Both the position numbers and the translations under genes were made by a program. 25,510 bases of DNA from a virus. Under the pieces are notes generated by a model that was not told where the DNA came from, searched no databases, and saw only the letters and a list, made by a program, of their open reading frames with translations. The stretch lies in IMG/VR virus record IMGVR_UViG_3300007229_000074, positions 1 through 25,510 of that record. One strand, given 5' to 3'. This document shows, in pieces, positions 20,401 to 23,290 of the stretch; the stretch's first letter is position 1; each line of letters opens with the position of its first letter.

Positions 20401-20618
20401 TTATACAAACCTCCTTCTTTTTCATAAGCTATTTTCTCTAACTCAAACTGCGCTGTGAGTACCTTTATCCAGTTATCAAGCAATTCGATCCTGGTTACTT
20501 GACTAAATTGGTGGTGCCAAGCGTGACCAATCTCAACGATGCCGCTAGTGCCGACACCCTCATGCCGATAGGCGTTTAGCTTTACTGCCTCGCCAATGAT
20601 GTCTGTTAACGCTTCCAT
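20391..20618 (-). CDS. Hypothetical small protein between exonuclease and ERF genes
   Basis: 75-residue protein beginning MEALTDIIGEAVKLNAYRHE. The ATG at 20618 overlaps the exonuclease stop by 13 bases and has AGGAGG about 11 bases upstream; a longer frame from 20663 would overlap more. No recognised domain; helical and mixed charge with a Tyr/Trp/Lys end (GGLYKWK). Placement inside the exonuclease-ERF pair suggests an accessory recombination factor (inference). Confidence 0.55.
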   Translation of the reverse strand: MEALTDIIGEAVKLNAYRHEGVGTSGIVEIGHAWHHQFSQVTRIELLDNWIKVLTAQFELEKIAYEKEGGLYKWK

Positions 20619-21553
20619 ATTCCGTAAGCCTCCTCTAAGTAGCCTGGTGGTTCTTGCCAGCAAAGCTCATTCCATTCTGGCGAGATCATTTCCATTAGTT
20701 CGCTGGAGTTCTCAGCGACCTGTAGGAATTTTTCTGTGACAGCGTTCTGCCGCTCGGTCTCTCGGATTACATCGTCCAGGTAGTCGGGCGTCATCTCGTC
20801 ACAGTTGTATTGGTGAAACAGTCGATAGTCCGACTTATTCGCGTACAGCAGCCAGCAAGGTAAGCCGCCATTGAGCGCACGAAACCCCGCCACCTGGCTC
20901 ACGTTCGCCTGCTCCCAGGGACCGGTAAGTTTTTTAGGTAGTGAGTTCTGTGCCCAACCTGACTTAGTAGTCTTGCTTCTCTTGGACCACTTGGTCTTGA
21001 GATCGCCGCGATAGCAGTAGTCCGGTAAGGTTTTATATGGCACTTTGTTATTGCCTATGTAACCGTACAGCTCCCGCTCTGGTAGTCGCTGCTTGTCGCC
21101 GCTCATGGCCTCTATGAGTCCGTGCCAGGCGTTCTCTATGACCGGCTCTATCTCATCAAGGTAGTAGTCGCACTTCTCCTCGTCGATCCCATCGTCCCAG
21201 GATCGGCATACATAGTTTTCGTGAAACTCTTTGTAGGCCCACACCTTGCACTCCTCAAGGTCCATGTCGGCAAATATCGCCATGTCCACAGCCTGCTGGA
21301 CTAGCTTTCCGCACTCCATGTTAGCGTTAGACGACCCATTATGTTTTCCATCGAGTCTTCTGATGGTGGTCCAGGCATCGTCCACATCCTCCTGCGTACC
21401 CCAATCTGACTTGGCTATCTGCCATGCCTCATTGAGTTTTGGCCTGATGATGCACTTGTCAAACAGGGTTTTGCTGCGCGTCTTGCTGCGCGGGTTTGAA
21501 TGCCAGTAGTAGTGGTGCCGTAGCGCCCAATCTGGCGTTGGTAATAACTCCAT
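20606..21553 (-). CDS. PD-(D/E)XK exonuclease (RecB/YqaJ-like)
   Basis: 315-residue nuclease. GKLVQQAVDMAIF (about 82-94) resembles the N-terminal helix motif of RecB-type nucleases. Candidate catalytic residues are Glu161 (ERELYGYI), Asp178 (TLPDY) and Asp184/Lys186 in YRGDLKTKW, in the expected order E-D-DxK. Several Cys are scattered, but not in the four-Cys pattern of Cas4 iron-sulphur enzymes. It precedes the ERF gene, which fits an exonuclease-annealase recombination pair. The ATG has AGGAGG 4 bases upstream. Exonuclease polarity is unknown. Confidence 0.75.
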   Translation of the reverse strand: MELLPTPDWALRHHYYWHSNPRSKTRSKTLFDKCIIRPKLNEAWQIAKSDWGTQEDVDDAWTTIRRLDGKHNGSSNANMECGKLVQQAVDMAIFADMDLEECKVWAYKEFHENYVCRSWDDGIDEEKCDYYLDEIEPVIENAWHGLIEAMSGDKQRLPERELYGYIGNNKVPYKTLPDYCYRGDLKTKWSKRSKTTKSGWAQNSLPKKLTGPWEQANVSQVAGFRALNGGLPCWLLYANKSDYRLFHQYNCDEMTPDYLDDVIRETERQNAVTEKFLQVAENSSELMEMISPEWNELCWQEPPGYLEEAYGIWKR

Positions 21554-21561
21554 ACTGCCTC

Positions 21562-22311
21562 CTATATATTAAAAGATAGTTGTATATCTACCTTGTCGCT
21601 CGCCTCATCCCAGTGCAGCGCACTGGCTGAGTTAGTAGATTCTATTCTCTCGGCAATAATGCTTGCTCGAGTTTCCTTTGACTTAGGGCTGTAAGCTCCA
21701 CTCCACTTGCTATCAATGCCAATGTTTCTCGCTATATTTGTGGAGTCCGCGCTGGATAGCGGCAAGTGTTTGAACACTGCCTTGTTCAGCATTCTAAGGC
21801 CGTGCAGTTTTGCGATTGGCTGACCATACTTATCAGTAACGTGGCGTATAACATCTTTCATTCTGCTAACGCATTTACCTGGATTCCGCACATCGTATTC
21901 GCCGCATGATCCGATGGCGACTCTTGGGTACGTTTTGCATAAGCGGATAAATCTATCCTCTGGCTCATTCATGTGCCAAACCGGCACCCCGACATGACTA
22001 CCATGGGGCCAGGCTGCTAGCAGTTCATCGTTAGCCTGGCACCCGCCATCAATTACATCGGGAATAATTGCAAAGTCAAAGCGAGGATGGTTTTTCCAGC
22101 GATCAACAAATTCATAATAGCCTGACCAATCAATAGGCTCTCCGGTTTTCCAGAACGTAAACGCCCCATTGTCCAGCCCAAATGATTGGCAAATTTCTGT
22201 GGCAAGTCCGAACTGGTCCGGCCTAGCGAAACTTATAAATGCATGGCGACCCTTCCAGGCTTTAATAGCGCAAGTGTCTGGCGTGATCGGGCCGCCGTGG
22301 TAGTGAATCAC
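21562..22311 (-). CDS. dpdA: DpdA-like DNA 7-deazaguanine transglycosylase (TGT superfamily)
   Basis: 249-residue TIM-barrel candidate. RHAFISFARPDQFGLA, LDNGAFTFWKTG (Asp47), FAIIPDVIDGG (83-90), GVPVWHMNEP (108-117), VAIGSCGEY (131-139), KLHGLRML (168-175) and SSADSTNIARN (Asp189) follow the conserved block order of the phage DpdA-type family. Asp47 and Asp189 are the likely counterparts of the two catalytic Asp of tRNA-guanine transglycosylase. In known systems DpdA swaps guanine in DNA for preQ0 or a derivative. The GTG start overlaps the T-fold gene's TAG by one base (TAGTG). Family by motif recall; product base unknown. Confidence 0.75.
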   Translation of the reverse strand: MIHYHGGPITPDTCAIKAWKGRHAFISFARPDQFGLATEICQSFGLDNGAFTFWKTGEPIDWSGYYEFVDRWKNHPRFDFAIIPDVIDGGCQANDELLAAWPHGSHVGVPVWHMNEPEDRFIRLCKTYPRVAIGSCGEYDVRNPGKCVSRMKDVIRHVTDKYGQPIAKLHGLRMLNKAVFKHLPLSSADSTNIARNIGIDSKWSGAYSPKSKETRASIIAERIESTNSASALHWDEASDKVDIQLSFNI

Positions 22312-22562
22312 TAGCTGCGCTCTCTCATAGTCTTAATGTGTACACCATGATGATGGGCCGTGATTATCTGAAAGCCGCCAAGAAGCTCTGCCAACTGATC
22401 GGCAAAAATTTCATGGTAACCCTCTTTGAGATCGTCGGTCGCATCTACAATCTTCTCGACCTCAATCATTTCTGACGACTCGATTGTTAGGTCGTAATCA
22501 ATCATGTCTCCATTTACTGGGCACTTAGCGCTAAAGCTATGCTCATAAATATTTCTATACAT
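22311..22562 (-). CDS. Mini tunnelling-fold protein with QueF/FolE-like motifs
   Basis: 83-residue protein. The order beta-beta-alpha-alpha-beta-beta fits a single T-fold unit. CPVNG with Cys14 matches the CPxTG around the QueF catalytic Cys. MIEVEKI (32-38) parallels the QueF VESKSL segment, and YHE (His50, Glu51) parallels QueF FHE at nearly the same spacing. TAHHHGVHIKTMR (68-80) also resembles the last strand of GTP cyclohydrolase I. Far shorter than QueF (about 165) or QueD (about 120). First gene of the leftward operon, AGGAGG 4 bases before the ATG, coupled to dpdA. Likely a 7-deazaguanine-handling protein; exact reaction unknown. Confidence 0.5.
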   Translation of the reverse strand: MYRNIYEHSFSAKCPVNGDMIDYDLTIESSEMIEVEKIVDATDDLKEGYHEIFADQLAELLGGFQIITAHHHGVHIKTMRERS

Positions 22563-22609
22563 ACTGCCTCCTTTGTCTTATTTCTGCCTGTAGTGGCATT
22601 AAATGAAAC

Positions 22610-22677: not shown

Positions 22678-22890
22678 ATGACGTTAGAAAAATGGCGAGT
22701 GAGGAAAAAATTGAGTTACGGTAAGCTGGCAAAGTTGCTTGGTGCATCTCATGCAAGCGTTGTATCTCGATGGTGTCGGGATATTGACGATAAGGATCGG
22801 ATGATACCGAAGCCCTCATACATGAATCAGATTTATAGGCTAACCGATGGCAGTGTCCAACCGAACGACTTCTACCTACGGCGAGATTGA
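22678..22890 (+). CDS. Cro/repressor-like HTH regulator
   Basis: 70-residue protein. MTLEKWRVRKKLSYGKLAKL, then LGASHASVVSRWCRDI is an XRE/YdaS-like helix-turn-helix at the N-terminus, and the C-terminus (IYRLTDGSVQPNDFYLRRD) resembles the tail of small phage Cro/CI-like regulators. ATG with GAGG 6 bases upstream. It is the first gene right of the divergent promoter, so it is the natural candidate to bind the palindromic operator beside it. Repressor versus activator cannot be told. Confidence 0.72.
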   Translation: MTLEKWRVRKKLSYGKLAKLLGASHASVVSRWCRDIDDKDRMIPKPSYMNQIYRLTDGSVQPNDFYLRRD

Positions 22891-23290
22891 GGACCAGGTA
22901 CATCTTCGGGTTATTAAGTGGCTGAATGCCGTGCTACCTGGCGAGACCCTGATTCATCATTCCCCCAATGAGGGGAAGCGGCATATCAATTTCAAAACCA
23001 AGTTGAAAAGGATGGGCACCCAATCGGGATGGCCCGACCTGGAGTTATTCGTGCCTGACTCTGCCTTTTTGCCTGGCGTTTGCCCTCGCCCTATTTTCCT
23101 GGAGCTGAAGCGCACGAAGGGCGGCCGACTGTCGGAGTCACAGACGGCTCTCTCTGAGCGATTCATTGGCTTGGGTATGCACTGGCACTGCTGTAACAGC
23201 GCTCGTGCTGTGAGGGCGGCTCTGCTGCCTCTGGTGACTATCCAGGAAGGTGAGCACTCGGACAGTCTGCTGGAGGACTTCAAGTGCTGA
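22847..23290 (+). CDS. VRR-NUC nuclease (PD-(D/E)XK)
   Basis: 147-residue nuclease. YGEIEDQVHLRVIKWL opens the domain; GTQSGWPDLEL gives Asp64 and FLELKRTKGGRLSESQ gives Glu86-x-Lys88 and Gln99, the pattern of the VRR-NUC family. The family includes FAN1 and many phage proteins that act on branched or flapped DNA, for example Holliday-junction resolution. ATG 22847 overlaps the HTH gene by 44 bases; a GTG two codons later is an alternative. Cotranscribed with the HTH regulator; likely serves recombination and packaging of replicative DNA. Confidence 0.85.
   Translation: MAVSNRTTSTYGEIEDQVHLRVIKWLNAVLPGETLIHHSPNEGKRHINFKTKLKRMGTQSGWPDLELFVPDSAFLPGVCPRPIFLELKRTKGGRLSESQTALSERFIGLGMHWHCCNSARAVRAALLPLVTIQEGEHSDSLLEDFKC

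Follow-up and report, generated by a model that had tools for sequence, protein, structure and literature searches.

The locus described here raises the question of what a protein of 83 residues contributes to a DpdA-like enzyme when the two genes are joined and no gene for 7-deazaguanine synthesis is seen around them. The pair was found in a viral contig (IMG/VR record IMGVR_UViG_3300007229_000074, positions 1 to 25,510), which was analysed over its whole length of 25.5 kb, is referred to below as the window, and may be a fragment of a larger genome. An earlier note on this DNA had proposed that the two proteins form a minimal system that takes a precursor from the host, possibly changes it, and puts it into phage DNA. 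We asked which parts of this proposal are supported by the window itself, by relatives of both proteins, and by the setting of the pair in other phages and prophages.

The Gene Pair and Its Genomic Setting

The upstream gene of the pair (positions 22311-22562, minus strand) starts with ATG and encodes the 83-residue protein, a member of the PHROG 37496 family that appears to be related to QueF. It is preceded by a strong Shine-Dalgarno ribosome-binding site, AAAGGAGG (22563..22580, minus strand). The downstream gene (21562-22311, minus strand) starts with GTG and encodes a 249-residue protein of the compact phage DpdA clade, whose members have about 225-265 residues. Direct reading of the sequence confirmed both open reading frames and the one-base overlap between them: in the TAGTG at 22309..22313 (minus strand; the junction reads AGC TAG TG ATT CAC), one G is common to the TAG stop codon of the 83-residue gene and the GTG start codon of dpdA. 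The overlap makes translational coupling of the two genes likely.

Just upstream of the pair lie a divergent HTH gene (22678-22890, plus strand; a weak Pfam HTH_3 match) and a VRR-NUC-like gene (22847-23290). With these neighbors, the pair suits the head of a leftward early operon, where the earlier note had placed it, but no promoter for the pair was confirmed in the window. Leftward after dpdA come a 315-residue gene without a family, an Erf ssDNA-annealing protein, and a PHROG 704 exonuclease. Virion and tail proteins are also encoded in the window, and two of them match PHROG "internal virion protein" families. The 315-residue gene (20606-21553, minus strand), which directly follows dpdA, has no Pfam or PHROG match; by eye, its GDLKTK stretch resembles PD-(D/E)XK nucleases, e.g., YqaJ/Cas4. 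In agreement with the first reading of this DNA, no FolE, QueD, QueE, or QueC, and also no QueF, was detectable in the 25.5-kb window, which may be only part of a genome. No Rfam family, the preQ1 riboswitch included, was found in the window.

The 249-Residue Protein and the Phage DpdA Clade

The 249-residue protein matched PHROG 887, "queuine tRNA-ribosyltransferase", at E=2.4e-88, while Pfam returned no match. In a tblastn search, matches at E<=1e-5 were obtained in 107 phage records, with up to 69% identity, and included phages of Pantoea, Salmonella, Klebsiella, Escherichia, and Vibrio. A short record labeled as a Staphylococcus phage, OR850331.1 (1719 bp), contains a dpdA that is 68% identical to that of the window, like those of enterobacterial phages; this record is probably mislabeled or contaminated.

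A DpdA family HMM built from 31 relatives matched the proteins of phages MED16 (2e-71) and 7-11 (2e-53), as well as the annotated DpdAs of the Queuovirinae phages VogelGryff (5e-18) and Iggy (1e-16). Residues D47, H113, H170, and D189 are kept throughout, including in these four phages. The aspartates of the TGT-superfamily catalytic type (LDxGxF, and later D-S or D-C), D47 and D189, are present in all alignment rows, and D47 aligns with the DSGGFQ of host TGTs.

Structure and profile checks of the TGT relationship gave a mixed outcome. The AlphaFold model (pLDDT 89.8) gave TIM-barrel matches, but in Foldseek searches other TIM barrels were nearest, with arcTGT 1j2b at rank 49 (E 0.17), and hhalign matches to TGT were weak (E 0.01-0.045). 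With an untrimmed TGT alignment, 2 of 60 shuffles reached the score of the DpdA-TGT profile match, which is thus not clearly above shuffled profiles. The DpdA assignment therefore rests on homology to phage DpdAs. The PHROG 887 match and the HMM matches to the proteins of 7-11, MED16, VogelGryff, and Iggy uphold the view that the 249-residue protein is DpdA-like; judged by this homology, it is a guanine transglycosylase of the DpdA clade. DNA from two phages of the clade has been analyzed by LC-MS/MS, and dADG, in which the base is 7-amido-7-deazaguanine, was present at low levels, accounting for 0.02% of G in phage 7-11 (PMC6884629) and for 0.13% of G in MED16 (PMC8306585).

Fold and Conserved Residues of the 83-Residue Protein

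The PHROG 37496 family is annotated as being of "unknown function", and the 83-residue protein had no significant match in Pfam. AlphaFold, given 48 aligned sequences, predicted a beta-beta-alpha-alpha-beta-beta arrangement with a pLDDT of 96.5. When this model was compared with the PDB using Foldseek, the best matches were the structures 5k0p/5jyx of the archaeosine synthase QueF-Like (E from 4e-4, TM to query 0.73-0.80), followed by GTP cyclohydrolase I and, next, by V. cholerae QueF. The model and its matches to QueF-Like and QueF structures thus support the earlier assignment of the protein to the T-fold.

Residues Y6, F10, C14, P15, Y23, E51, A54, A69, and H71 are invariant in 124 T-fold sequences. 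A comparison of the family profile with that of QueF gave a score of 23.1, which none of 150 column shuffles reached (maximum 20.1). In the resulting alignment, C14 falls on the catalytic Cys of QueF (Cys55 in B. subtilis), and H50-E51 falls on the QueF HE motif, which contains the substrate-anchoring Glu97. The match is weak in absolute terms (hhalign probability 8-11%), and PDB sequence searches with queries A1, A2, A4, and A5 gave nothing or chance matches only and never found QueF. We take the profile comparison as support for, but not proof of, a relation between the family and QueF.

Asp62 and the NADPH motif, by which QueF is defined (PMC5372742), are both absent from the family. The Asp62 column is occupied by I21, with Ile in 123 of the 124 sequences, and the motif E(S/L)K(S/A)hK(L/Y)(Y/F/W) is found in no family member, the corresponding region reading VEHIKTATALI or similar. 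The T-fold protein is therefore not a member of QueF, and the QueF mechanism cannot be transferred to it. With QueF (PF14489, including the proteins of phages Dp-1 and HVTV-1), it shares the T-fold, the CP..G motif with the catalytic Cys, and the HE motif with the substrate Glu, but it lies below Pfam detection. QueF-Like of Crenarchaeota (5k0p/5jyx, PMC5485725) is its best fold match and is similar in having a single T-fold domain, a Cys nucleophile, and no NADPH chemistry. However, the phage protein is shorter (83 versus about 109 residues), has a DpdA as its partner, and is without the general acid/base Asp, which QueF-Like retains; QueF-Like acts in its own system after base insertion (PMC5485725). 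The reaction that characterizes it is the ammonia-dependent conversion of nucleic acid-borne preQ0 to an amidine. Judging from these comparisons, the T-fold protein may work like QueF or QueF-Like, yet it belongs to neither.

Several other identities were tried and rejected. A likeness between A-x-H-x-C-M of the Dp-1 FolE and A-x-H-x-G-V of the T-fold protein was seen by eye only, and the profile did not support it: the FolE score of 13.5, obtained in the same way as that for QueF, was within the shuffled-profile range, and the alignment was out of register. In the fold comparison, GTP cyclohydrolase I came second, after QueF-Like. QueD/PTPS scored 11.2, over 5 columns only. Membership in QueF-Like was rejected despite the best fold match, the Cys being present and the Asp absent. 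The small dpdA-adjacent genes MED16 gp37 and Pam5 Pam5_29 showed no T-fold relationship.

Linkage of the T-Fold Gene and dpdA

Relatives of the T-fold protein were taken from IMG/VR (the best 80 of 208 in one scan and the best 80 of 200 in another), from 15 loci in bacterial genomes, and from phage records, which gave 182 loci, 125 of them distinct. A same-strand dpdA was found by tblastn to adjoin the T-fold gene in 181 of the 182 loci. In the remaining one, a Cupriavidus prophage (L174, 4962-5951), the T-fold gene is intact and the dpdA behind it survives as a broken start whose reading frame is disrupted. Thus, when co-occurrence was checked in other phages, the T-fold family always lay beside dpdA or its remnant. 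The two genes overlap by four bases in 96 of the 125 distinct relatives and by one base in 8. Prophages carrying the pair occur in Pseudomonas, Massilia, Janthinobacterium, and other hosts, and among isolated phages the pair is present in, e.g., Pseudomonas phage Epa33 and Rhizobium phage RHph_X2_30. The T-fold profile was found in none of 398 other sampled Pseudomonadota genomes and hence does not represent a housekeeping gene.

Distances among T-fold proteins and among the corresponding DpdAs are correlated (Mantel r 0.64, shuffled maximum 0.16). Exchanges of either partner were also observed. In three loci (L185, L187, and L188), a DpdA about 90% identical to that of the window is paired with a very divergent T-fold protein, and in four others (L051, L060, L088, and L178) a Pseudomonas-type T-fold protein is paired with another DpdA type. 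Such re-pairing in both directions argues for a joint function of the two proteins. Together with the adjacency in 125 distinct loci (one with a broken dpdA), it bears out the suggestion that the two genes belong together.

Precursor Supply and Genes Inserted between the Partners

None of the 39 pair-bearing records, three complete phage genomes among them, encodes QueC; QueD was present in one of the 39, within the cassette. Among 14 hosts of pair-bearing prophages, QueC is found in 13 and QueF in all. This distribution of QueC suggests that the precursor probably comes from the host. In relatives of the window pair, the gap between the T-fold gene and dpdA can contain QueD/PTPS (5e-22), YhhQ/Vut_1 (8e-7), or a nucleoside 2-deoxyribosyltransferase (2e-8), and in Rhizobium phage RHph_X2_30 YhhQ is located just upstream of the pair. 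Since E. coli YhhQ is required for preQ0 import (PMC5372724), the presence of QueD and YhhQ in the slot ties the cassette to preQ0. The prediction of a host-made (or imported) precursor thus finds support both in the distribution of QueC and in the contents of relatives' cassettes.

Some of the inserted genes deserve separate mention. In L083 (4246-4653), L101 (3249-3656), and L117 (3242-3643), QueD/PTPS has the T-fold gene on one side and dpdA on the other, and in L422-L425, L432, L434, L435, and L450 QueD alone, without a T-fold gene, directly precedes dpdA; QueD may serve DpdA as an alternative, second partner from the T-fold superfamily. The nucleoside 2-deoxyribosyltransferase (PF05014) occupies the gap in L113 and L114 and perhaps acts on a deazaguanine base or nucleoside. 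Small HTH-type regulators, recognized by eye, are found in the same position in L023, L041, L105, L120, and L148. A Massilia genome has, at G001:C24:472700-475764, a second QueD and QueC no more than 3 kb away from a TGT-like match (E 5e-7), and this site is possibly a bacterial dpd-type island apart from the prophage pair.

Proposed Function of the Pair and Alternative Explanations

On balance, we favor the reading that the two genes form a compact cassette for modifying phage DNA, supplied with preQ0 that the host makes or that is imported, and that within it the T-fold protein converts the nitrile. In such a cassette, the 249-residue DpdA would replace guanine of the phage DNA with a 7-deazaguanine base, and the T-fold protein would bind the same base, with E51 serving as the purine anchor. 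C14 would attack the C7 nitrile, yielding a QueF-type thioimide, which would be resolved without NADPH to an amidine (dG+) or an amide (dADG), with H71 or another conserved residue replacing the missing Asp. Conversion of the nitrile could take place before or after base insertion.

Retention of the Cys and the Glu suggests QueF-type thioimide chemistry, while the lack of an NADPH motif and the fact that the hosts have QueF speak against preQ1 production. Most likely, the T-fold protein would convert the preQ0 nitrile by a non-QueF route, perhaps to an amidine or amide. The fold match to QueF-Like mildly favors the amidine, and the fact that dADG is made by phages without a T-fold protein mildly disfavors dADG as its special product. 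A more specific proposal, which we advance tentatively, is that the 83-residue family is a new minimal T-fold enzyme whose invariant Cys and His71 (rather than an Asp) would convert the preQ0 nitrile, free or in DNA, to an amidine, an amide, or another group, as part of a two-gene system fed by the host. Of the minimal system originally envisaged, the DpdA clade, the T-fold, the linkage, and the host precursor were supported; modification of the DNA, the role of preQ0 as the substrate, and nitrile conversion by the T-fold protein are what we infer.

The strongest rival to this reading is that the T-fold protein is a non-enzymatic subunit of DpdA, which either captures a scarce host 7-deazaguanine base through E51 or contacts DNA, and in this way raises the yield of modification or sets its sequence preference. 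The obligate linkage with translational coupling and the absence of the QueF catalytic Asp would fit such a role, and the DpdA of related phages works alone, which makes a helper conceivable. On the other hand, the invariance of both C14 and H71 in 124 sequences exceeds the needs of base binding, and the pairings of divergent DpdA and T-fold proteins are less expected of a tight heteromeric interface. We therefore regard a non-catalytic base-capturing or targeting subunit as rather unlikely, though worth keeping in mind.

It is quite improbable that the T-fold protein is a miniature version of the nitrile reductase QueF, producing preQ1 that the phage would then insert as dPreQ1. QueF is the closest family by profile, and phage Dp-1, which has a QueF-type protein, contains dPreQ1 (PMC6884629), but the NADPH motif and Asp62, which define QueF (PMC5372742), are both missing, and a second copy would add little in hosts that all already have QueF. 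We likewise give very little credence to the possibility that the 249-residue protein is a short TGT variant that modifies tRNA and alters host translation, as the name of its PHROG and its TGT-superfamily membership might suggest: its clade includes 7-11 and MED16, whose DNA contains dADG (PMC6884629, PMC8306585), it has 249 residues against about 370 and more in the open frames of host TGTs, and the DpdA HMM does not match host TGT loci. Finally, phage early regions do shuffle modules and HTH regulators also insert in the slot, but it is barely credible that the two early genes are unrelated and travel together by hitchhiking in a single mobile block, since in none of the 125 distinct loci was the T-fold family seen without a dpdA or its remnant beside it, and the pair is kept while either member is swapped.

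Relation to Known Phage Systems

A cassette for nitrile conversion and base insertion would resemble several known systems in part. The DpdA-only phages (the third group of Hutinet et al. 2019, PMC6884629), which comprise 7-11, MED16 (PMC8306585), and prophage BTP1, have a homologous compact DpdA and no phage preQ0 pathway, and a host precursor is presumed for them; however, their dpdA has no T-fold neighbor, whereas the window and its relatives have one. In phages with preQ0 genes and DpdA (9g, CAjan, VogelGryff, Iggy, and Dp-1), a homologous DpdA inserts the 7-deazaguanine, but these phages make their own preQ0, unlike the pair-bearing phages, which are without QueC. YhhQ and QueD, as found in preQ0-gene phages, also adjoin relatives of the window pair.

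Phages that have a DpdA but no precursor pathway had been described before (76 of them, as cited in PMC8306585). The new part is the small T-fold partner. A 2023 NAR paper on further phage 7-deazaguanines is said to deal with the families DpdA3, DpdA4, and DpdL. In the literature searched, which excluded that paper (cited in PMC13329287), we found no report of the T-fold protein as an obligate partner, of its kinship with QueF, of the re-pairing, or of the alternation with QueD/YhhQ; priority on these points is not firm.

The analysis provides a function-linked hypothesis for PHROG 37496 and links the family to DNA modification in prophages. If the proposal is true, temperate phages would possess a two-gene DNA hypermodification fed entirely by the host queuosine pathway. 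The pair would also offer a small system in which to ask how modifications beyond dPreQ0 arise in DpdA-only phages; how dADG arises in MED16 was a question that PMC8306585 did not answer. For comparison, a ready set is at hand in the pair itself, its re-pairings in nature, and the variants into which QueD or YhhQ has been inserted.

DpdA Genes without the T-Fold Partner

A separate sample was collected by DpdA and consisted of 160 relatives, or 86 after thinning at 80% identity, with accessory genes sought within 2.5 kb. The T-fold gene was found in 45 of the 160, YhhQ in 31, and QueD in 16 (22, 20, and 9, respectively, after thinning). The T-fold gene and YhhQ occurred together in only 2 of the 160 (Fisher p 0.002, rising to p 0.08 for the thinned set), and the accessories tend to exclude one another. 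In the DpdA tree, for which sampling was uneven, the pair is present in several major branches, and the window falls in a clade of mostly solo dpdA genes, that of BTP1 among them. A T-fold partner is lacking for many close DpdAs, also for those of phages in which dADG has been measured, which indicates that base insertion does not require the partner. Genes of another type were observed beside solo dpdA in enterobacterial phages: genes annotated as having, or resembling, an ASCH domain are located next to dpdA in BTP1 (L396, 4225-4509) and upstream of it in L202, L206, and L212.
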